Shown: one piece after another, positions 1,368-23,358 of the stretch
How the letters are laid out: the number at the start of each line of letters is the position of its first letter
Position numbering within the stretch: the stretch's first letter is position 1
Source of the DNA: a virus
Length of the DNA stretch: 29,730 nt
IMG/VR virus record: IMGVR_UViG_3300009169_000067
Location: 1 to 29,730 of that record
Direction: 5' to 3' (one strand)
Translations under genes and position numbers: made by a program
The notes under the pieces: generated by a model
Told to the model about the DNA's origin: nothing
Seen by the model: the letters and a program-made list of their open reading frames with translations, nothing else
The model's database searches: none

Positions 1368-2679
1368 CAAAGGAGTATTTACCGTAATTGGGCTTTAACT
1401 CAAAGTACGCCCGCATCATTAGCATATCAGCAAAGTCGGGGCTGATCCCGTGGCGTAACTTAATCTTGTCCTTTGGCGTTACCGCTAACTTACCATCCTT
1501 ATCGACGTTCTCGCGGCGGATCATATCTAGTTCAGCGGCAATCTTATCTTTGTAATCATTCGCCACAAGCATCGTTACCTTGCCCTTTTCTATAAGGTCA
1601 GCTAACTTGTAGTAACACTCGCTCTTTAGGTTCATGTACTGGGGCTGTGTTGCCTTGCTACCGTTAACGAATCCAAGGCATTTCATAACGTCCTTTACTC
1701 CACCGCCGATACCATCCTCATCGACAAGCACGCTCTTAAGACTTACCTTGTGTGCTGCCATCAATTCACGGATCGCTTCAATCGTTACCGTTATATCTAC
1801 CCTTGTGAGCACCCGAATGTCAATAAGTGTAAGCCCATCCCACACACCGATCACCGTTCTATCTTGACCAAGGCGCGCAATGTCGGCGGTTATTCTCTTC
1901 TCACCACTTAACAGTTCGTTTCTGAAACATCGCAGCACGTCGTCAGTCTTGAACATTACGTCAATGCTTTCGTCGTAATCCCAATCGCCGTCCAGTAATC
2001 GCTTGCGAAGTTGCTCGGGCAAACTTGCCAACTCTTCGAGGTAACTCTCAGGGAGTTTCGGGTTGTCGCCGGGTAATGCGGGAACGAAGGCGAACTTCGG
2101 ATCGAGCACCCCCTCCACCCACGGCTTGTAAATCTTGTTGTATAACCAACCCTTACTCGGGTTGCAAGTCATTAATCCTTTTGGCTGCAATCCGAATTCA
2201 GTCAACTTGTACCTCACGCGAGAACGCACGACCGATACCGCCCGCTCACTCACTTGCGCTACCTCGTCAATAAAGAAATCGGTAATTTCTAACGATCCAA
2301 GACTATCAAAATTCGGATCGGAGGGGTAGGCGAACAAGTCCTTCAAGATTATTTCGCTGCCGTTCTCAAAGTAAATGATATTACTCTGGCCGTTGAAGGT
2401 GTAATGCACACCACTTCGAAGCCCAAACATCGCAGCCACCTCGAAAAAAGTGTTGAGGGTTGTTTTCTTTAACGTGTCTAGCTTGCTTCGGCCGATCAAT
2501 CCACGTGAACCTGCGTACTTTATTCGACGCATGATCTGCCACGCGCACCCAAGGAACGATTTACTACCACCTGCCGCGCCTCCAAACAACACAACACGAA
2601 CGGGTGAATCCACCTTAAGGTGTTCGAGGGCGCGCTGTTGAACGGGAAAGAAGTCGATGCTATGGGTTGAGGCACTCAT
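1363..2679 (-). CDS. terL: Terminase large subunit
   Basis: The 438-aa product is the ATP-driven DNA packaging motor and headful/site nuclease. The N-terminal ATPase domain has a Walker A motif GGAAGGSKS (residues 33-41), a Walker B with ITDFFIDE (132-139, D138/E139) and a coupling motif TCNPS (171-175). The C-terminal RNase H-like nuclease shows acidic residues in ITADIAR (D266), LVDEDG (D320-D322) and SPDFADML (D415, D418). The length is usual for a phage TerL. It is the last gene of the long leftward operon, overlapping the glycosyltransferase gene upstream by 20 bases. Its partner small subunit is on the opposite strand at 10594, which is unusual because terS and terL normally sit side by side. 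Confidence 0.95.
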   Translation of the reverse strand: MSASTHSIDFFPVQQRALEHLKVDSPVRVVLFGGAAGGSKSFLGCAWQIMRRIKYAGSRGLIGRSKLDTLKKTTLNTFFEVAAMFGLRSGVHYTFNGQSNIIYFENGSEIILKDLFAYPSDPNFDSLGSLEITDFFIDEVAQVSERAVSVVRSRVRYKLTEFGLQPKGLMTCNPSKGWLYNKIYKPWVEGVLDPKFAFVPALPGDNPKLPESYLEELASLPEQLRKRLLDGDWDYDESIDVMFKTDDVLRCFRNELLSGEKRITADIARLGQDRTVIGVWDGLTLIDIRVLTRVDITVTIEAIRELMAAHKVSLKSVLVDEDGIGGGVKDVMKCLGFVNGSKATQPQYMNLKSECYYKLADLIEKGKVTMLVANDYKDKIAAELDMIRRENVDKDGKLAVTPKDKIKLRHGISPDFADMLMMRAYFELKPNYGKYSFV

Positions 2680-3364
2680 TAACGTATGTCATTTCGGCTT
2701 TTGTTGCTGGCTCGTTGTAGTGCACCCGCTTTATCTTGTCAAACGAGTTTAACTCATCTTTGTACTTTAACATCACGATGTACCCATCGAGGCGAACGAC
2801 TTTGCCAATATCCTTAAACATTCTTTCTGCACCCGTTTCGCAGCCCTTTAGTTGGTAAGGGCGACCGCCACAAGCAAGCATCGCACCTTTGCTGAAAATG
2901 TTTATACCGGGGAGCAGATCAACCTTGTAGTTCAAATCAACTCGGATTGTTTCGCCCGAAATCATTTGGTGAATGAGTAACGGCTTGCCATTACCTACGC
3001 CCGCCATAATAACCTCGTTTGGATCAAGAACGGCCAACTGCTCGAACATACCAAGCGGCGCGAAGTCGTCGGCACCAACCAAGCAATACCAATCGCTTTC
3101 GGGTAATGCCGCCAAAGAATCGTTGAACTTTTTTCTGAGACTTTCGTCTCCAGCGCTTGCTGTTGTGCCGTGCATTTGCGGTACCTCAACATACAAAACG
3201 TTGTCCGATAAGAACGGTTCTACAAATCGTTTTGACAAGTTGCCCTCGCTTCCACAAACGACAACAGGAAAACCGCTTTTCGCGTAGTGTGCAATGCAAC
3301 GTTCGTAGGCAGGTTGGTGTGGTTTACCCTTGAGGTAAATCGGAATCGTGATTGAAATTTTCAT
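2660..3364 (-). CDS. GT-A-like glycosyltransferase
   Basis: The 234-aa product starts MKISITIPIYLKGKP, the first beta strand of a family-2-like GT-A fold, and has a metal/nucleotide-binding acidic pair in CLVGADDF (D99-D100) after a KKFNDSLAAL segment. The second glycosyltransferase of this window (25162-25989) shows the same order: a KFN..L helix, then a D-x5-G-x-DD strand end. The two are therefore probably distant paralogs. The likely role is transfer of a nucleotide-activated sugar to a phage component (modified DNA, virion protein) or to host surface glycan; the acceptor cannot be told from sequence. It overlaps the acyltransferase gene by 41 bases and terL by 20, indicating co-translation. 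Confidence 0.75.
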   Translation of the reverse strand: MKISITIPIYLKGKPHQPAYERCIAHYAKSGFPVVVCGSEGNLSKRFVEPFLSDNVLYVEVPQMHGTTASAGDESLRKKFNDSLAALPESDWYCLVGADDFAPLGMFEQLAVLDPNEVIMAGVGNGKPLLIHQMISGETIRVDLNYKVDLLPGINIFSKGAMLACGGRPYQLKGCETGAERMFKDIGKVVRLDGYIVMLKYKDELNSFDKIKRVHYNEPATKAEMTYVNECLNP

Positions 3365-3941
3365 TGAATTTGAGTTTATTAAGTAAGTGTGTGTTTTGCT
3401 TTATTGGTCGTGCAGGGCTACCGATCCATACCATATACACCTCGTTGTGGTGTCCTTTGTAAAACGCACCCGCACCGATCATTGAACCTCTCGGGATAAA
3501 CGACCTTTGATGCACCGTTGCATTCAGCCCAATGGTGCTATCATGTTCAACATGGGTAAACCCACCGATCTTTGCGCCGCACGAAAGTGTTACGTTTTCA
3601 CCGAGGTAGGCATCATGCCCAACGTGTGCGCCTTTCATTAGTGTGCAGTCATTATGAATACACGTTGAAATCTCTCTTGCTCCATCAACCGTATTGTGGC
3701 CGTGAAGTACGGCACCTTTTCCAATAACAACAGAACCCGTATTTGAGTGCCTCATCCTTGCATTCGGATATTCGGCCACGGCGCCAATGATGCAGTATGG
3801 GCCTATCTGCACGTCTTCTTTAATAATGCAATCGCCGTAAATGATCGAAGTACGATGCACGAAGGCGCTTGGTTCTACAATCGCGTCGGGATGAATGTTT
3901 ATCCACCCCCTTTTGAATAACCACAGTTTAATTTTTCTCAT
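3324..3941 (-). CDS. Left-handed beta-helix acyltransferase (hexapeptide repeat)
   Basis: The 205-aa product has successive hexapeptide-like turns (IHPDAIVEPSAFVH, IIKEDVQIGPYCIIG, VVIGKGAVLHGHNTV, LMKGAHVGHDAYLGENVTL, IGGFTHVEHDSTIGLN), giving an LpxA/PglD-type left-handed beta helix across residues about 15-175. The C-terminus carries the usual WIGSPARPIK-type loop. Histidines such as those in AHVGHD are placed like catalytic residues of LpxA-type enzymes. These enzymes acylate sugar nucleotides or glycans using acyl-CoA or acyl-ACP. Its position between a methyltransferase and a glycosyltransferase suggests acetylation of the same sugar. ATGA overlap with the small gene upstream. The substrate is unknown. 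Confidence 0.85.
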   Translation of the reverse strand: MRKIKLWLFKRGWINIHPDAIVEPSAFVHRTSIIYGDCIIKEDVQIGPYCIIGAVAEYPNARMRHSNTGSVVIGKGAVLHGHNTVDGAREISTCIHNDCTLMKGAHVGHDAYLGENVTLSCGAKIGGFTHVEHDSTIGLNATVHQRSFIPRGSMIGAGAFYKGHHNEVYMVWIGSPARPIKQNTHLLNKLKFNENFNHDSDLPQG

Positions 3942-11672: not shown

Positions 11673-11824
11673 CGTCGTTCGGTTGGCTGCACACCTTGGA
11701 GCAGTTAGCGAATTACGATGTGGTAAGAATCGAGGAGTTAACTAAGATAAACCACTACACTCTACTCACGCACATGGTGTACATGCAGCGAAAGAATTTT
11801 GAACAGCAAAAAAAGAAACGATGA
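11550..11824 (+). other. Probable programmed -1 frameshift and extension (GT-like product)
   Basis: The zero frame reads C-TTT-TTT-TTT as CTT TTT TTT TCG (T run 11551-11559), an ideal slippery site for -1 slippage. After slipping, the new frame stays open for about 87 codons to a TGA at 11822-11824 that overlaps the next start as ATGA. It encodes an acidic linker (VDEGEEGTGEDAGATDGGG) followed by a compact helical domain (SFGWLHTLEQLANYDVVRIE, then ELTKINHYTLLTHMVYMQRK). No start codon serves this frame on its own except two late ATGs. The fused product would be about 258 aa. Confidence 0.75.
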
Positions 11825-13215
11825 CTAACGTATCATACAAAGTAATAATTGAAAGGTTCCGTGCATTTGCCGACGCGCACTTGCAGATCAAGGCATTCAG
11901 CCACGGGCAACCAACACAGGCCGACCTACCCAAAGAACCCGTGTACCCTTTGATGCACGTATTTTGGACAAATAGCGGGTACCCTTCTAAGATGAAGACT
12001 TGGACTTTCGCTATCTTGTTTGCCGACTTGCCGAGGGATCGTACCGAAAAAACAGAATACCAAAAGGAAAGCGCAAGTGCGATGCAGAGGATAGCCGAGG
12101 ACTTGATCGCCGAGATTCAAAACGGGCGCACCATATTTGGCGGCGATGTTGCCTTTGAAGGTGATCCGACTATTACCCCACTATTCGAGGAAGGAACGAA
12201 CACTTTAACGGGGGTAACTCTCGATATTACTTTGTCGTTCGATTGGAACTGGAGCGCGTGTGATATACCCGCCGACTTCACTATTGGCGTTACTTCACCC
12301 GATAGCACCGATCCGAATACCTCTTTAGTGTTTGCTGAATCGTTGAACAAAGAAGGTGTTACCATAACCCTTGATAACGACCAAGAGGCACCGGGCAATT
12401 CAAAGTACTACGGCACCAATGCAAGTGGCGTGAAAGGTTGGCACGCGATAACAAGTGGCGGCGGCGGGAGCGTTTGGTTTGATGGTTCGGGAGTGCCGAG
12501 TGAATCACTAGGTAACAATGGTGACTACTACCTACGAACGTTGAACGGCGATGTATTCAACAAGGCCGCAAACGTTTGGACAGTTGTAGGCAACATTAAA
12601 GGGCCGCAAGGTGAGCAGGGTACGCAGGGCATACAAGGCATCCAAGGCATACAGGGAATTCAAGGTGAGAAGGGTGATAAGGGCGACAAAGGAGATAAAG
12701 GCGATACCGGTGATACAGGGCCGACGGGCGCAACTGGAGCGACAGGGGCAAACGGCCAAGGCGTACCAACGGGTGGAACGACGGGGCAAGTGTTACGCAA
12801 AGTAGATGCAACCGACTTTAACACGCAATGGGCAACGCCTACCTTTTTTGCTAACTCTTCGCCGGGCGGAACACTCGCCGCAGGGTTCACCCGTTTTTTA
12901 GTCGTGCAAGGATCAAATGCTATCGCAACTTCCGAGGGTACGCCACAACAAGTGGTGCCTCGTGCGTTAACAACGGTTAGCGCAACCGCCTACCTAGTGA
13001 TACTTACAGCAACGGTTGGTGCATCGACCTTCACTTTACGCCGTAACGGAGTAGATACGGGGTTAGTAGTAACCATACCGAGCGGATCAACGACTGGTGT
13101 TTATACTGCGACGGGAGCCATATCATACAGCGCAACCGACTTATGGAGTTGGCGGTTAGTTGGCGCAACAACAAATGCAATTCAAATCAATAACATATCG
13201 ATTGAATATCAGTAA
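11821..13215 (+). CDS. Tail-completion-like domain fused to collagen-like fibre
   Basis: Residues 1-150 (MTNVSYKVIIERFRAFADAH ... TLDITLSFDWNWSACDIP) resemble a small stand-alone protein of many Bacteroidota phage tail modules, probably a tail terminator/completion protein. Here it is followed by a linker with a GSVWFDGSGVPSESLGNNGD-type fibre repeat (about 217-258), a collagen-like Gly-X-Y region (about 261-316; GIQG and GDKG repeats) and a C-terminal beta-rich domain (about 317-464). Collagen-like stretches trimerise in phage fibres, and the C-terminal domain may bind the host. The fusion puts an adhesin on a tail joining protein. An alternative is that residues 1-150 are only an anchor domain of similar fold. 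Confidence 0.8.
   Translation: MTNVSYKVIIERFRAFADAHLQIKAFSHGQPTQADLPKEPVYPLMHVFWTNSGYPSKMKTWTFAILFADLPRDRTEKTEYQKESASAMQRIAEDLIAEIQNGRTIFGGDVAFEGDPTITPLFEEGTNTLTGVTLDITLSFDWNWSACDIPADFTIGVTSPDSTDPNTSLVFAESLNKEGVTITLDNDQEAPGNSKYYGTNASGVKGWHAITSGGGGSVWFDGSGVPSESLGNNGDYYLRTLNGDVFNKAANVWTVVGNIKGPQGEQGTQGIQGIQGIQGIQGEKGDKGDKGDKGDTGDTGPTGATGATGANGQGVPTGGTTGQVLRKVDATDFNTQWATPTFFANSSPGGTLAAGFTRFLVVQGSNAIATSEGTPQQVVPRALTTVSATAYLVILTATVGASTFTLRRNGVDTGLVVTIPSGSTTGVYTATGAISYSATDLWSWRLVGATTNAIQINNISIEYQ
12601..12768 (+). repeat. Collagen-like coding repeats
   Basis: In-frame 9-bp Gly-X-Y repeats: GGCATACAAGGCATCCAAGG-type units followed by GGCGACAAAGG-type units. They encode GIQGIQG..., then GDKGDKG... 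and GATGATG.... Such repeats expand and contract easily, giving fibre length variation. Confidence 0.85.
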
Positions 13216-13217
13216 CC

Positions 13218-14204
13218 ATGAAAACAATTTTACTTTCAGCACTTATTTTCTGCACGTTCTGTTTGAGCGCGCAAGATTCTTTATTCACTTGGAATCGAGA
13301 GGTAGCCATAGTCAGCGGTGTAATTCGTCGCGCTTCTACGGGTTGGCAATTCGTTACGCCCGACCATGATGCGCTTGGCTTTTCGGGAACGATAACGGCC
13401 ACTAGCAATCAACTCACTTTGGATATGGATTTCGACGGTATGGGGCTTAACCCTTCGCAATGGACGCCTAGTGGTTTTGTTTGTGGTGCAGATGAAACCT
13501 ACGCGATGGAAGGCCATACTTTTGGCGCCTCAGTTAGTTCAACGTCGATAGTAATTCGTGGATCGAACAATATAGCTAGCGGTCAACAGATCGCCTTTAA
13601 CGGTACTTCGTGGGTGGGCGCAAGTGGTTACACCGCGACTTGGAATAGTTCGCTTCAATGCTTGCAGTTAGCCCGAAATTTAACAGATAACAGTAATTGG
13701 AAACAAGGCATTCAAGCTGGCGGTGTTATGGGTATATCGCTTGAAACAAACGTAACTAGCTTATCGCAGTTGTACTACCATGCGGTTCTTGTGTCGAATA
13801 GCAACACGCAGATAAGAATAGCGTTCTACTACAACGGCCAGAGGGTAGCAACGCCTGACGTGAATATGAAGTTCTTTCTAACCGACTTTGCACGGAGGCC
13901 GCAATCATTCGACTTTACATCGAACGTAACTACCCTGCAACCTAACTCCAACATTTGGATCGTCGGCACCTTCGTGAAGATCAACCAAAGCGCTATGCCT
14001 ACAAGTGAAGATCAATCGTTCTACGCCTATCCAAATCCAAGCACCGACAAGTTTAGTCTATCCACGGGCAGTAATTCGCCAATCAAAGTTTACTCGATGG
14101 ATGGAGCGGTTATCTATTCGGGATTCATTGAGAACTGCGAATTAAAACAAGGGGTGTATGTGGTGGAACAAGACAGCCAACGAACCAAAGTGGTGATACA
14201 ATGA
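13218..14204 (+). CDS. Secreted protein with type IX secretion-like sorting domain
   Basis: The 328-aa product starts with a clear Sec signal peptide (MKTILLSALIFCTFCLSAQD, cleavage probably after SAQ or SA). It ends with a domain of about 60 residues matching the type A C-terminal sorting signal of T9SS cargo: FYAYPNPSTDKFSL, then IKVYSMDGAVIYSG and LKQGVYVVEQ with a final TKVVIQ. The middle (20-265) is beta-rich, with FNGTSWVGASGYTATWN and NIWIVGTFVKI like segments, resembling fibre or lectin-like modules. In a T9SS-bearing host it would cross the outer membrane and be released or anchored to the surface. It lies inside the tail operon, 2 bases after the fibre gene and overlapping the gp10-like gene by ATGA. 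Confidence 0.85.
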   Translation: MKTILLSALIFCTFCLSAQDSLFTWNREVAIVSGVIRRASTGWQFVTPDHDALGFSGTITATSNQLTLDMDFDGMGLNPSQWTPSGFVCGADETYAMEGHTFGASVSSTSIVIRGSNNIASGQQIAFNGTSWVGASGYTATWNSSLQCLQLARNLTDNSNWKQGIQAGGVMGISLETNVTSLSQLYYHAVLVSNSNTQIRIAFYYNGQRVATPDVNMKFFLTDFARRPQSFDFTSNVTTLQPNSNIWIVGTFVKINQSAMPTSEDQSFYAYPNPSTDKFSLSTGSNSPIKVYSMDGAVIYSGFIENCELKQGVYVVEQDSQRTKVVIQ

Positions 14205-14713
14205 ACGACAACACGGCCATAGTTGATGCGCTTGTAAACTTCGGAAACGATGTGGTTGAACGCGCGCAGAGAAACCTTGGTGCAACACGCATGGTGAAGG
14301 GTAAGAAGCGCAGAGCAGTTGCAACGAGTTTGCTTAAAAATTCGTTGACGTTCTCACTCAGGCGCAACAAATACAACTACATCATTAAATTTATCTCTAA
14401 AGGACAGGCGGTCGAGTATGCTGACGTTGTAGAGGAAGGACGCAAGCCTAACAGCAAGCAACCGCCTGTTGAGCCGATACTCAAATGGATCAACGATAAG
14501 AAGATTAAAGTGCGCGACGAAAAGGGCAAGATCGTGAAGCAGACCGAAAGCAGAAAAAAGGGGTTAGCTTTTTCCATTGCTCGAGGTATAGGCAAGAACG
14601 GCATACCCGCCGTGAAGTATTACGAGAACGCATACAACGACGCGCTCCCAGAGCATGAGGAAAAAATAGTAAACGCACTGCAAGCGTACATTGAAAGTAA
14701 ATTGAAACAATGA
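14201..14713 (+). CDS. HK97 gp10-like head-tail connector/tail completion protein
   Basis: The 170-aa basic product contains VEYADVVEEGRKPNSKQPPV followed by EPILKWINDKKIKV (residues about 74-105) and GLAFSIARGIGKNGIPAVKY then YENAYNDAL. The 'YA..vE.Gr.pg..PP...I..Wi..K' pattern is that of HK97-gp10-type proteins, which join or complete the tail at the neck. The order beside a tail-completion-like domain fits. Four-base overlaps on both sides. Moderately sure of the family, less of the exact position in the virion. Confidence 0.75.
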   Translation: MNDNTAIVDALVNFGNDVVERAQRNLGATRMVKGKKRRAVATSLLKNSLTFSLRRNKYNYIIKFISKGQAVEYADVVEEGRKPNSKQPPVEPILKWINDKKIKVRDEKGKIVKQTESRKKGLAFSIARGIGKNGIPAVKYYENAYNDALPEHEEKIVNALQAYIESKLKQ

Positions 14714-15981
14714 TAACAATCGAACAACAACCGTACGGCGTTACGCCCGTCGGTCAGCCTTTAATATTTGTGGCATCGTCCGACAACGTGGGCAACACGG
14801 GATTTCGGTATAAGGTGACGTTAATTAGGCCGTTTACCAATGAAGAGATTTCATTTTACTTACCACCTAACCCTGCCGATAAACTCGTATTCGATGCCAA
14901 CGCAATTGTCACCAAGTGGTGTGTTAACGCGGTTGATCTTTCGGGCTTACCGATTGTGTTTGCGGATGGCGCGGTCGAGGAGGTAGATGCAAGTGGGCTT
15001 ATTCGATTTAAATTTAACTTGATGGAGGCGTGGGTTATTGACGGCGTGTTAACCGAAGATCCCGAAAGTGAGGAGGTAGTTGATGTAGGTGTATGGCCCG
15101 CACGCTACCAAATTAGCGACGGTTATCGTCCTAACCCTGCAACTCGTTACGGCTTGACAGGGCAAACAAAGTACCTTCTTTCGAGCCGATACGCTGACAC
15201 GCATCTGCCCGACTTGTTTCCCCGTATTGCTGGCAGCGGCAATATTATTTACATTCCCGTGCGCGAAAGTGATTTCGGTGTGATAAGCTTCTGCACGATT
15301 CAAGCTTCAGGAATTGCAGCACTCAAAGGACGCGTTACCCTTGTACCCGATAGCGGATCGCCTGTTACTTACACGGCAGACTTACCCGATTTCGGACACT
15401 TCGGATGCTACCCTGCTAATCTTAACGCCTCCACTATTAGCGGAATGCCTAAACCATCCGCTTACCCTAACTGGAGGTATATCGGGTTCCAAGTTCTTAA
15501 CGCGTCGAACGCTATTGTATCTGCATCGTATGTGTTGTATAACGCGGCGATATACGGCGGCACCGACTGCAAGTACCCCAACGTGCGCCTTGCATGGGTG
15601 AACGAGCATGGCGGTTGGGACTTTTTCAACTTCACCCGAAAGAATGAAGAGAACTTGGAAGTGGAGCGCAGAAGATACCGCAAGGTGGTAGGCACTTATG
15701 CAGCCGAAACTTTCGGGTTTAACTCATTCGATCGTGGGCTAACCGAACGCGCACCGATCGTCAAGCAATACCTCAACATCGAAAGCGGTTGGTTACAGGA
15801 AGGTGAATTTACCCTGCTGAAATCGCTGCTCTATTCAAAGCAAGTGTTCATCGTAAACGATAATGCGACGATAACGCCCGTGCTTATCGAGGACAACAGT
15901 TATCTAGTGCGACGCGCAAGGGATAAGAAGCAGTACAACCAAGCCATGAAACTTCAATACGCACACACTATTAACGTATGA
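14710..15981 (+). CDS. Distal tail/baseplate-type structural protein
   Basis: The 423-aa product starts MITIEQQPYGVTPVGQPLIF and is beta-rich throughout. It contains PNVRLAWVNEHGGWDFFNFT followed by RKNEENLEVERRRYRKV (residues about 293-330), a segment I associate with uncharacterised tail proteins of Bacteroidota phages located between the tape measure and the fibre genes. The C-terminal part (about 355-423) has TLLKSLLYSKQVFIVNDNAT, similar to distal tail proteins where a receptor-binding or hub attachment domain follows. Overlaps both neighbours by ATGA. The function is by position and size; no enzymatic motif. Confidence 0.7.
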   Translation: MITIEQQPYGVTPVGQPLIFVASSDNVGNTGFRYKVTLIRPFTNEEISFYLPPNPADKLVFDANAIVTKWCVNAVDLSGLPIVFADGAVEEVDASGLIRFKFNLMEAWVIDGVLTEDPESEEVVDVGVWPARYQISDGYRPNPATRYGLTGQTKYLLSSRYADTHLPDLFPRIAGSGNIIYIPVRESDFGVISFCTIQASGIAALKGRVTLVPDSGSPVTYTADLPDFGHFGCYPANLNASTISGMPKPSAYPNWRYIGFQVLNASNAIVSASYVLYNAAIYGGTDCKYPNVRLAWVNEHGGWDFFNFTRKNEENLEVERRRYRKVVGTYAAETFGFNSFDRGLTERAPIVKQYLNIESGWLQEGEFTLLKSLLYSKQVFIVNDNATITPVLIEDNSYLVRRARDKKQYNQAMKLQYAHTINV

Positions 15982-18947
15982 GCCAAGTAATACTCACAGC
16001 TATAAACTCCGATTCGGGACAGGGTACAATTCTCGATCTATACGAGAACGAAACGATTTCCCAAACGTGGAAGTTTACCGATATATCCGAACTCAAAGCG
16101 GCGGGAGGTTTTTCCCGTCAATTTTCCATACCCGATAGTCCGACAAACGTTGCGTTCTTCGGTGCGCTCGACGACGTGAATGCGCAGTCTTGGTTCAAGT
16201 TTGGAAAGAAGGTGGACGCCGTATTGACAGTAGACACCGTACCAATAGCTGTCGGTCATATCCAAGTTAAGCGGGTGGTGAAAACAAAGGACAAGAGCGG
16301 ATTCGATTACGATGTAGTTTTCTACACCGAAACCACAGACCTAGCCACAGCAGTTGGTGAGAAGAAACTTGCAGACATCGAAGCATTGCCCGATTTGAAC
16401 GAGGTAATGAACGCGGCAAGTGTTACCGATCTTGATGCAGAAACCGTGCGATACTTCCTGTGTGATCGTGGGCAAAAGTGGTCGCAGCTTGGTGAGGCGG
16501 CTACACGTCCGATATGGAACCCGAATAACCCACTTTACGCAGCAGACCTTACGCCGCACGTTCAAGCGTTGTGGCTGTTTGACAAAATTATTACCGAGGC
16601 TGGCTTCGTGTGGCAGGGTGAAACCTTAGCGGATCGACTTGCGTTGTATTACGTTCCCTTTAGCGTTACGGCAAATATCATTAACGAATCTCCCGGACAA
16701 GAGGCATTCTTTGAGGCGGGATTCTTAACCGATCAAACGCCGGGTGTTATTGACAGCGCAACGATGACCGAGGTGTACGATAACGGCGCTAACTTATCGG
16801 CGGGTGTTTATACCGCACCCTACACCGCCTTCTTTCAATTCGAGGTATGGGCGGGTGTTGATCCATCGCTAAGCACGGCACCTCCCGGTGAAACAGCGTT
16901 CGGCCATTTAACCCTGCGCATAATAGATACCGATACTAACGAGGTGTTGGCGCAACAGTTCTTTGATCTCGAAAACATTACCAACCATATTTTTTCTACC
17001 TTTTCGGTATTCCTTGATACAGGCCAAAGCGTTAAACTTGATAGCACCTACATATCCAACGCAGACAACTTTTACAATCTCGAAGGCACCGCAACCAACT
17101 TGCCAACAGAAGGCACGGGATGGAGAATAGCAGCAACAAGTGATGCGCTAAGTAATGGAACGGTTAACCTACCCCTTAACGCTCCCGACGTTACGCAGAT
17201 GGCTTTTCTGCGCGACGTTATGCGCATGCACAACCTTGCCGTGGTTCCCGATCGAAACATACCCAACAAGTTATACTTTACCCCCTTCCCCGAGTACCTA
17301 CAAGTTGGCGACGTGAAAGACTGGACAGGGAAGTTAGATGAAAGTGTTGATGTTGTGGTGAGAGGTACGGACGAAGAGCAAAAGAAGACGTTACTATTTA
17401 CATACAAAGCGGGTGGCGATGCTAACTCAAAGTACTATGTGGATAAAAAACAAAGGGTGTACGGCGACTACAAGGTTGACGGGTACACCGCTACCTCTCT
17501 CGAAGACCCGAGCGACTTCGCAGAGGGTGAGTTAAAGATTGAATTAACCGCACAATCAACACCATGCAGCGTGATTAACGGGACGCCTGTTCCAATACCT
17601 AAGTTCATTGCCGAGAATGGCAACTACGTTGCTCCAGGCCTTCGTTTTTTTTACACCGCAGGAACGGTTGAGGTGTACTTATTCATCGATGCTGTCGGCC
17701 CCGAGGTTCGATCTGTGTACGTGGGCAACCACTACAATAATTTTCTACCAACGGTCGGCGGGTTCGATCTGAATTTCGCACCCGAGGCGCCGCTGCACAG
17801 TATCAACGGCAACCCGTTCAACAATCTATTCAACCTTTACTGGAGAGATTACCTAAACGAGATTTATTCAAACGATGCACGTGTTATGGAAGCGTCATTC
17901 AACCTTGATACCTCCGATATTGTGAACTTCAAGTTCAACGACAAGATATTCATTCGTGATGCCTACTGGAGAATACTCGATATAAATAACCATGCGGTGG
18001 GGCAAGAGGTGAGTACACCGCTTCGATTGATAAAGATTATCAACCCTGCGCTCGATTGTGAGTTCCAACCCGTATCGGTGAACCTTGACGGCGAAGTGAT
18101 CTTCGAGAATGCAGAGGGTGAAGAAGGAGCAAGTGAACTGTGCTGCACAAGGTACGGTTACTTTTGGATTGAGGAAACCGATAAGACTTATTGCTCTGCC
18201 TTTCCTCCAAGCACGGGAAGTGGAGGCCAAGTGCCCAACGATCTGTTTGCACTTGGTGTGCGTTCAATAGGCAACAATCAAAACGCTGGAGCAGACACTA
18301 ACACGAATGCGTTTCGCATAGGCAACAGGATAACCATTCCCGCAGACGCGGGCAATACAGTTGCCGCAGGGCAGAACATCAAGATCGGCACCGGTAACAG
18401 AAACGTTGTGGCCGTGGGTGATAACATCGAAGTGCAAAACGACGCGGGAACGGTGGCGGTGTTCGGTCAAGGTGTTAGAACCAATATACCGGGCATTCAC
18501 TTGGGCGGCGGTTGGTACAACAACGACCGAACGAAAGGTATAGCTACTCAACAGGCAGGAACGTTTGTAATGAGCGGCCAAGGTAACTTCGTCGGGGTAA
18601 GTGAAATTCCGCTATACATCAACGGGATTGTGGGCAAGCACATAAACATTCCCAATGAAAGCGCGTGGGCTGTAACCCTGCAAGTAATGGTCAACCAATA
18701 CGTGTCGGGTAGCATCAGTAAATACGATTACGGCTTGTACTTCGGAACGTTCACCAAGGTAGCTGGCTCCGCGTTTAAAGGTGAGTTCAACCTAATTGAG
18801 CAGAACGGTACACTAGGTAATATCAGCATCGAGGTTGACACCTCGACCAACACGAACGAACATCGTGTGAGTGTGAAGCACAACGCGGGTACAACTAATA
18901 ACGGCTTAAGAATTTCGGCAAGTTTGAGTTATATCCAAGTTAAATAA
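15978..18947 (+). CDS. Large tail hub/fibre protein, 989 aa
   Basis: The longest gene in the window. The N-terminal half (MSQVILTAINSDSGQGTILD, FSRQFSIPDSPTNVAFFGAL) has the character of a tail hub or tip protein: a 'k.. R.FsiP.s..N...F' motif is common in large Bacteroidota phage tail proteins. A Cys-containing hinge lies at about residues 713-736 (ELCCTRYGYFWIEETDKTYC). It is followed by a Gly/Asn-rich segment (about 752-850: NQNAGADTNTNAFRIGNRIT, GQNIKIGTGNRNVVAVGDNI) typical of a left-handed beta-roll or YadA-head-like fibre, and a C-terminal beta domain. It is probably the tip that touches the cell. Followed by a bidirectional terminator. Confidence 0.75.
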   Translation: MSQVILTAINSDSGQGTILDLYENETISQTWKFTDISELKAAGGFSRQFSIPDSPTNVAFFGALDDVNAQSWFKFGKKVDAVLTVDTVPIAVGHIQVKRVVKTKDKSGFDYDVVFYTETTDLATAVGEKKLADIEALPDLNEVMNAASVTDLDAETVRYFLCDRGQKWSQLGEAATRPIWNPNNPLYAADLTPHVQALWLFDKIITEAGFVWQGETLADRLALYYVPFSVTANIINESPGQEAFFEAGFLTDQTPGVIDSATMTEVYDNGANLSAGVYTAPYTAFFQFEVWAGVDPSLSTAPPGETAFGHLTLRIIDTDTNEVLAQQFFDLENITNHIFSTFSVFLDTGQSVKLDSTYISNADNFYNLEGTATNLPTEGTGWRIAATSDALSNGTVNLPLNAPDVTQMAFLRDVMRMHNLAVVPDRNIPNKLYFTPFPEYLQVGDVKDWTGKLDESVDVVVRGTDEEQKKTLLFTYKAGGDANSKYYVDKKQRVYGDYKVDGYTATSLEDPSDFAEGELKIELTAQSTPCSVINGTPVPIPKFIAENGNYVAPGLRFFYTAGTVEVYLFIDAVGPEVRSVYVGNHYNNFLPTVGGFDLNFAPEAPLHSINGNPFNNLFNLYWRDYLNEIYSNDARVMEASFNLDTSDIVNFKFNDKIFIRDAYWRILDINNHAVGQEVSTPLRLIKIINPALDCEFQPVSVNLDGEVIFENAEGEEGASELCCTRYGYFWIEETDKTYCSAFPPSTGSGGQVPNDLFALGVRSIGNNQNAGADTNTNAFRIGNRITIPADAGNTVAAGQNIKIGTGNRNVVAVGDNIEVQNDAGTVAVFGQGVRTNIPGIHLGGGWYNNDRTKGIATQQAGTFVMSGQGNFVGVSEIPLYINGIVGKHINIPNESAWAVTLQVMVNQYVSGSISKYDYGLYFGTFTKVAGSAFKGEFNLIEQNGTLGNISIEVDTSTNTNEHRVSVKHNAGTTNNGLRISASLSYIQVK

Positions 18948-22317: not shown

Positions 22318-23358
22318 ATGAAAAAATTATTCTCAATTCTCGCGGCGTTGTTCTTCGTCGTCGCATCATTCGCGCAGCCAGCATGGCCGACGATTAACGA
22401 AGAACTCACAGGCGTACCGCAAGACCTCATCTCGGCGTCAATGGACTACTGCCTAAATCAATCAATCGTTCCCGCTTATGTTAAGATCGAGCGCGTTCCT
22501 CGTGTGCGTGTGCGCCGAACACTAACCGCGCAAGGCTGGATTGAGACATCAAGAGACACTACCTTCACCGAAAGACGAAGGAATATTCCCGAGGTGCGAA
22601 GGTTTACGGCTACACATGGTAGACCTTTACTTAACGAATTGATTGAAACGGTAAACTCTGCACCGGGACAACTACAATACAAAGGCCGAACGGGTAACAC
22701 TTGGCAATGGCATAAGGTAGGCATTCGCTTTACCGATCCGCAAGGAAAGAGACAAGACATACCGCCGCATGATATCTTCGTTACGTTACTGCCCGACGGA
22801 CGTTTCGAGTTGCGGTATAGCCACAATCCAATGGTTCAGTACGCATCCAAGTTCAATCCGGCGACTACCTTAACATCATTCCTTCCGCATATCGTAGTGG
22901 AGAATGGAGTTGCGTATAACCGCACACTAATAAACGGTAAGCCTTGGAACGAGGTAGACATTGAATTCTTAATAACGCCTTGGGGAAAGACCGACCAAAA
23001 CTTTGTGTGGAGATGGTGGACGTATGGCGATACGCCAAAGGTAACTGGAGGTCATGCAGCCATCGACGCATGGGCGACGAGTATAACGCAGTACCCTAGA
23101 ACCGACCCGAAAGGACAAACGTTGACTATTCAAGCGGGGCCGACTGGTAGATTCGACGCAAGCACTCACACGTTTACCTATCCGCCTAACAACGGAAAGC
23201 CTGTGTATATCATGCTCCAAGCGGAGTTTTTACCCGCGCAGCATAAGCAACAGGAGTATAGGAGTTACCACTTGTTTTATCAGTACGGCCACACACCACA
23301 AGGTAGTGGATATCTTTGGCCCGCAAAAGATCAAGACCCGAACAAAGAAATGTATTAA
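22318..23358 (+). CDS. Sec-secreted phage protein, 346 aa (moron-like)
   Basis: The start at 22318 (MKKLFSILAALFFVVASFAQ, then PAWPTINEE) gives a textbook signal peptide with cleavage likely after AFAQ/SFAQ. The mature part is a soluble, beta-rich protein of about 326 aa with many tryptophans in WRWWTYG-type patches and paired arginines (RVPRVRVRRTL). It lacks a lipobox, a membrane segment and a T9SS-type sorting domain, so it should reach the periplasm. It has its own promoter-like box and a strong terminator, as a lysogenic-conversion or superinfection-exclusion 'moron' would. No known family is recognised. Confidence 0.75.
   Translation: MKKLFSILAALFFVVASFAQPAWPTINEELTGVPQDLISASMDYCLNQSIVPAYVKIERVPRVRVRRTLTAQGWIETSRDTTFTERRRNIPEVRRFTATHGRPLLNELIETVNSAPGQLQYKGRTGNTWQWHKVGIRFTDPQGKRQDIPPHDIFVTLLPDGRFELRYSHNPMVQYASKFNPATTLTSFLPHIVVENGVAYNRTLINGKPWNEVDIEFLITPWGKTDQNFVWRWWTYGDTPKVTGGHAAIDAWATSITQYPRTDPKGQTLTIQAGPTGRFDASTHTFTYPPNNGKPVYIMLQAEFLPAQHKQQEYRSYHLFYQYGHTPQGSGYLWPAKDQDPNKEMY

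Follow-up and report, generated by a model that had tools for sequence, protein, structure and literature searches.

The window analysed here, the whole 29,730-nt stretch of a viral record, contains at positions 13218-14204 of the plus strand an ORF of 328 amino acids, which we refer to as the cargo gene and whose translation is identical to the protein quoted in the initial annotation. Its product is divided into a predicted Sec signal peptide (residues 1-18; 13218..13271), a phage tail-fibre tip domain (residues 19-255; 13272..13982), a variable linker (residues 256-269; 13983..14024) and a predicted type IX secretion system (T9SS) type A C-terminal sorting domain (CTD; residues 270-328; 14025..14201). 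All of its neighbors discussed here lie on the same strand. Upstream is a collagen-repeat fibre-like gene (11821..13215), a conserved neighbor with matches to Pfam Collagen and to PHROG tail fibre families, and its stop codon ends 2 nt before the ATG of the cargo gene. Downstream, the TGA of the cargo gene overlaps the ATG of the next gene (ATGA, 14201-14204), which resembles tail completion/Neck1 genes weakly (14201..14713; phrog_5, E=0.0084) and was found in 78 of 80 relatives' loci; it is followed by a conserved tail-operon gene (14710..15981) and by a gene for a 989-aa tail-operon protein (15978..18947), which continues the run of overlapping genes. Thus, the placement between fibre and neck genes with ATGA coupling, as described initially, holds on the fibre side and for the overlap, while the neck identity amounts to the weak phrog_5 match. 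Since the cargo gene sits in the tail operon, it is presumably transcribed with the tail genes and expressed late.

The N-terminus of the cargo protein, MKTILLSALIFCTFCLSA^QD, has the features of a Sec-type signal peptide, which we assigned from sequence and hydropathy: a positive residue, a hydrophobic core and a predicted cut at A18^Q19 that fits the Bacteroidota Q-rule. On average, ~71% of the signal-peptidase-I substrates of a Bacteroidetes species expose a glutamine in this way (PMC5837995), and secreted proteins of Porphyromonas gingivalis phages have been reported that are predicted to follow this rule (PMC10367356). Positive residue, core and A18^Q19 are present in all three homologues, with cut sites of SA^QD in the window protein and TA^QD and TA^QV in the others. 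Although only 6 of the first 19 positions are common to all three proteins and most letters of the signal peptide differ between the window and the more distant L003 contig, the hydrophobic core, A18 and Q19 have been retained, which bears out the signal peptide that had been noted at the outset. By hydropathy, signal-peptide-like N-termini are found in 2 of the 40 likely genes of the window, the cargo gene and a gene at 22318-23358 (plus strand). The latter encodes a second protein with a putative Q-rule signal peptide (MKKLFSILAALFFVVASFA^QP; 346 aa), lies divergent to a tape-measure-like gene and has a 98% identical copy in the L002 contig; we found in it no sorting domain and no family match, and no copy of it in named phages.

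The body of the cargo protein is a tail-fibre tip domain whose homologues form the C-terminal part of phage minor tail proteins. PHROG 24580 (phrog_24580, tail fibre) matches residues 43-251 (E=2.6e-5), and tblastn against named phages found the C-terminal part of gp14 of Arthrobacter phage Anjali (28% identity, 2e-9), with weaker matches in Rhodococcus phages. When the Anjali domain was used as the query, all 24 matching phage records were actinophages, in which the protein is mostly annotated as a minor tail or tail fibre protein. Indeed, the minor tail or tail fibre proteins of Arthrobacter phages Anjali, Mendel and Shambre1 and of Rhodococcus phages E3 and ReqiPepy6 have a homologous, phrog_24580-like tip domain (24-29% identity) and share the DE, G.S/TV and SN.W positions with the cargo protein; when eight such domains were aligned, invariant positions emerged that include DE, G and, close to the end, SN.W. 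Foldseek matched the predicted structure to the Mendel minor tail protein (E=2.6e-14), the comparison with phage fibres that had been proposed as a check, and more weakly to fibre-type proteins of Escherichia and Klebsiella phages. No solved fold was clearly matched by the tip domain, the PDB rows of the VIA comparison covering the CTD almost exclusively. Thus, the body, which had been called beta-rich and adhesin-like, can now be described more precisely as a tail-fibre tip domain. In the actinophage proteins this domain ends a presumed virion protein that has its own N-terminal part and carries neither a signal peptide nor a sorting domain, whereas the cargo protein has both. We found no second copy of the tip domain within the 29.7-kb record, and thus nothing to indicate that virions, too, bind this receptor.

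The C-terminus matches the sorting-domain model TIGR04183 at residues 271-328 of 328, with 24.8 bits for the whole protein against a curated cut-off of 23, and with 30.1 bits when the last 68 aa are searched alone. The related Pfam family PF18962 reaches 24.4 bits with the whole protein (cut-off 27) and 29.6 bits with the last 68 residues alone, and TIGR04131 (type B) is absent from the profile matches of the protein. The TIGR04183 cut-off is also exceeded in the L002 and L003 contigs, which supports the type A assignment made at first. Because only one of 14 control genomes exceeded the cut-off in a six-frame search, in a list whose sole Bacteroidota member is Bacteroides ihuae, the match in the cargo protein is unlikely to be due to chance.

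Modelling of the fold depended upon the depth of the alignment: three sequences gave an unusable model (mean pLDDT 40), and the addition of 13 tip-domain homologues (16 sequences) raised the mean to 76. In the 16-sequence model, the last 60 residues are predicted to form a six-strand sandwich with pLDDT of about 69-91. Foldseek paired this CTD with the CTD of NucA bound to the T9SS translocon (8glk_D, probability 1.00) and with that of RgpB (7pq4, 0.98), with E-values of only 0.03-0.09 for these two matches. In the VIA comparison, the CTDs of RgpB, RemZ, RemA and HBP35 scored Z 5.1-5.7; since unrelated Ig-like domains reach similar Z, the fold alone proves little. The assignment as a CTD therefore rests on sequence, that is, on TIGR04183 and on NucA as the best, if weak (E 0.27), PDB sequence match of the CTD profile. 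Two elements of the CTD are required for secretion in P. gingivalis, a glycine where strand 4 begins and a lysine within the final strand, and CTDs from one species can fail in another (PMC11285876). Their counterparts in the predicted model are G296, next to the beginning of strand 4, and K324, within the final strand, and both residues are invariant in the three homologues. A scan of phage contigs for closely related CTDs returned nothing beyond the two contigs already known, tblastn of two of the CTDs against named phages gave nothing convincing, and TIGR04183 matched none of 50 related virus records (relatives by operon or tip domain, many of them fragments).

The two homologues, on other metagenome contigs, are 94% and 73% identical to the cargo protein and retain signal peptide, body and CTD, so that the search for homologues suggested earlier has yielded two further contigs with the full architecture. 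To place this architecture, we compared 17 virus loci with the tip domain, two of which are Anjali and Mendel again. In all 14 loci of other phages, the protein ends at or within a few residues of a final GN[LFI]W..G motif, whereas a signal peptide before the domain and a linker and sorting domain after it were found only in the window and its two closest relatives (L035 and L032 in this set, identical to L002 and L003), all three of which keep both. In the cargo protein, the tip domain starts ~12 residues past the predicted signal-peptide cut, with no N-terminal virion-attachment part before it. Because the proteins of the 14 other loci end there, the two predicted export tags flank a domain that elsewhere terminates a presumed virion protein. 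The cargo gene is under purifying selection, with a dN/dS between the window and L002 of 0.07 over its whole length; taken separately, the body has 0.05, the CTD 0.12 and the signal peptide 0.31. The CTD thus evolves faster than the body, yet has been retained. The linker is the fastest-evolving stretch relative to L003 (dN about 0.9), a comparison in which silent sites are near saturation.

We surveyed the corresponding slot in other phages with the conserved tail-operon gene at 14710-15981 as the anchor, taking the best 80 of its 335 viral relatives and scoring the 59 loci that showed the fibre-like gene as well as the next gene. The cargo gene was missing from 58 of the 59 slots, and its sole carrier, L042, is the closest relative of the window. 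In 21 loci the flanking genes overlap, abut or are at most about 115 nt apart, and in another 36 they are separated by a gap of 192-409 nt with one or two short genes (40-95 aa); the slot of L045 holds three other genes. Since 58 of 59 loci lack the cargo gene, we consider the slot accessory and the gene a lineage-specific insertion rather than a required tail part. In two distant relatives, the slot contains a 127-aa gene and an unrelated protein of 220 aa that lacks a signal peptide (L009:4960-5622 and L010:4972-5634), and the slot of L008 is empty. By eye, the 220-aa protein is reminiscent of the DUF1566/Lcl binding type, so that binding proteins may be exchanged at this position. Small proteins of 86-87 aa occupy the slot before the neck-like gene in L048, L060, L061, L068 and others, and fall into at least two unrelated-looking families (MTTEFDGNNF... 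or MKNIQPLDIWSDGDTK...).

The large terminase of the window is closest to that of Flavobacterium phage 11b (48%), followed by those of Cellulophaga phage phi10:1 and of Bacteroides phages, and these nearest relatives support a host in the Bacteroidota, the phylum of the T9SS. A whole-protein search of GTDB genomes with the patterns used found no relative of the cargo protein, and plasmids gave no match. The operon anchor found in GTDB only a short contig of a Rhodobacteraceae MAG (L041, RFQY01000146.1). This 7.4-kb contig is a relative of the Bacteroidota-phage tail operon and is probably a misbinned phage contig. Elsewhere in the window, a hexapeptide-repeat acyltransferase-like gene (3324-3941, minus strand) lies beside a gene for a protein that is glycosyltransferase-like by eye (2660-3364, minus strand); the two are possible surface-glycan modifying genes of the phage. 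Host contamination, judged unlikely from the start, is largely refuted by the same junctions in three contigs, which together with the homology of the body to tail proteins and the purifying selection on the gene uphold its phage origin.

Proteins that use the T9SS are exported by Sec, cut by signal peptidase, passed through SprA and relieved of their CTD, and are then anchored or released. That the cargo protein is exported is well supported by its predicted signal peptide and type A CTD, and export, as proposed in the initial annotation, is still the most economical reading of these two predictions. We suggest that a fibre tip has been turned into a T9SS cargo that is exported and occupies receptors on the envelope, and we regard this reading, taken as a whole, as having about an even chance of being right. 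The protein would be made together with the tail proteins, presumably late, carried by the Sec system to the periplasm, cleaved by signal peptidase I after Ala18 and directed by its CTD through the SprA/PorV translocon of the host. Once outside, it would be anchored on the host's own surface or released, and its tip domain would bind envelope receptors, most likely those of the dying cell, debris and sister cells, such that progeny virions would not be wasted and competing phages would be kept off. Export itself, anchoring, receptor occupancy and the benefit to the phage are steps that we infer. The presumed late expression from the tail operon is more compatible with coating or with blocking of re-adsorption than with early superinfection exclusion, and thus favors protection of the progeny. 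That some Bacteroidota phages have in this manner made a receptor-binding tail tip into surface-displayed cargo, by means of a signal peptide and a T9SS tag, with which infected cells cloak the phage receptor, we propose tentatively, as less probable than not. There is a functional analogy in Llp of phage T5, a receptor-blocking lipoprotein of the phage that the host exports and that keeps phage from adsorbing to infected cells and debris; Llp, however, is a small periplasmic lipoprotein that acts on FhuA from the inside, and both its sequence and its route are unrelated to those of the cargo protein (PMC9586334).

The same export evidence (TIGR04183, the Q-rule signal peptide and the CTD model) would serve equally for an exported adhesin or coat of the infected host or biofilm, a moron-like function in which the tip binds glycans on surfaces or neighboring cells rather than blocking a receptor. 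Both the accessory slot and a precedent, the phage tail-related protein PblB that acts as a cell adhesin in pneumococcus (PMC4508584), agree with this idea, but co-transcription with tail genes leaves little time to benefit the host, and no integrase or clear lysogeny gene was found among the window proteins scanned; we consider such a function unlikely. Alternatively, the protein might be exported and then attached to released virions, widening the host range or protecting the tail, as its tail-tip body and its position beside the collagen-repeat fibre gene could suggest. Since it has no virion-anchoring N-terminal domain, since dozens of relatives without the cargo gene conserve the genes on either side, and since the addition of virion proteins outside the cell would be unusual, we think this detour quite improbable.

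A third alternative dispenses with export: the protein could be an ordinary cytoplasmic tail fibre, whose hydrophobic N-terminus and Ig-like CTD only mimic export signals, the CTD being a borrowed beta-sandwich that perhaps docks on host T9SS proteins. Phage tails often contain Ig-like folds, and several unrelated beta-sandwiches do reach similar Z in the VIA comparison. Nevertheless, signal peptide and CTD occur together here and are both missing from 14 homologues, the resemblance to T9SS CTDs extends beyond fold to sequence motifs, and Q19 is conserved, leaving a cytoplasmic fibre only a slim chance. Finally, a host gene brought in by misassembly or recent transfer and functionless in the phage would be lineage-restricted, as this gene is, but its body is homologous to phage tail proteins, three contigs have the same junctions, the gene is under purifying selection, and the GTDB scan with the patterns used found no bacterial relative; we find this hardly credible.

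Export of a fibre tip that occupies receptors, the reading that we prefer, builds upon published examples of T9SS cargo encoded by phages (PMC7468147; PMC6949934). Cryophage genes (Nat Commun 2020), for which the authors propose superinfection exclusion or inter-strain competition, resemble the cargo gene in having a T9SS type A sorting domain and in being variable accessory genes, but the bodies reported for them, an endoglucanase, a GH39 and a PA14 protein, do not include one described as a fibre tip (PMC7468147). Similarly, ORFs with BACON repeats in gut phages (Viruses 2019) combine a putative binding domain with a T9SS sorting domain, once in the same ORF, but there the body consists of BACON repeats, the location is near the head section and homology to tail tips was not reported (PMC6949934). 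BFVD also contains uncultured-phage proteins named after the T9SS sorting domain, and NucA (endonuclease I), whose CTD (8glk_D) resembles that of the cargo protein, is a bacterial enzyme cargo. The new part is the tip domain as cargo, since a tail-fibre tip domain exported by the T9SS from within a tail operon was not found in the literature searched. TIGR04183 tails on tail-like proteins of Bacteroidota phages would thus represent a type of cargo that is absent from the literature that we found. If our reading is correct, this lineage would have built a receptor-blocking route from the tail itself, with two host export tags making an extracellular shield or weapon out of a receptor-binding domain.
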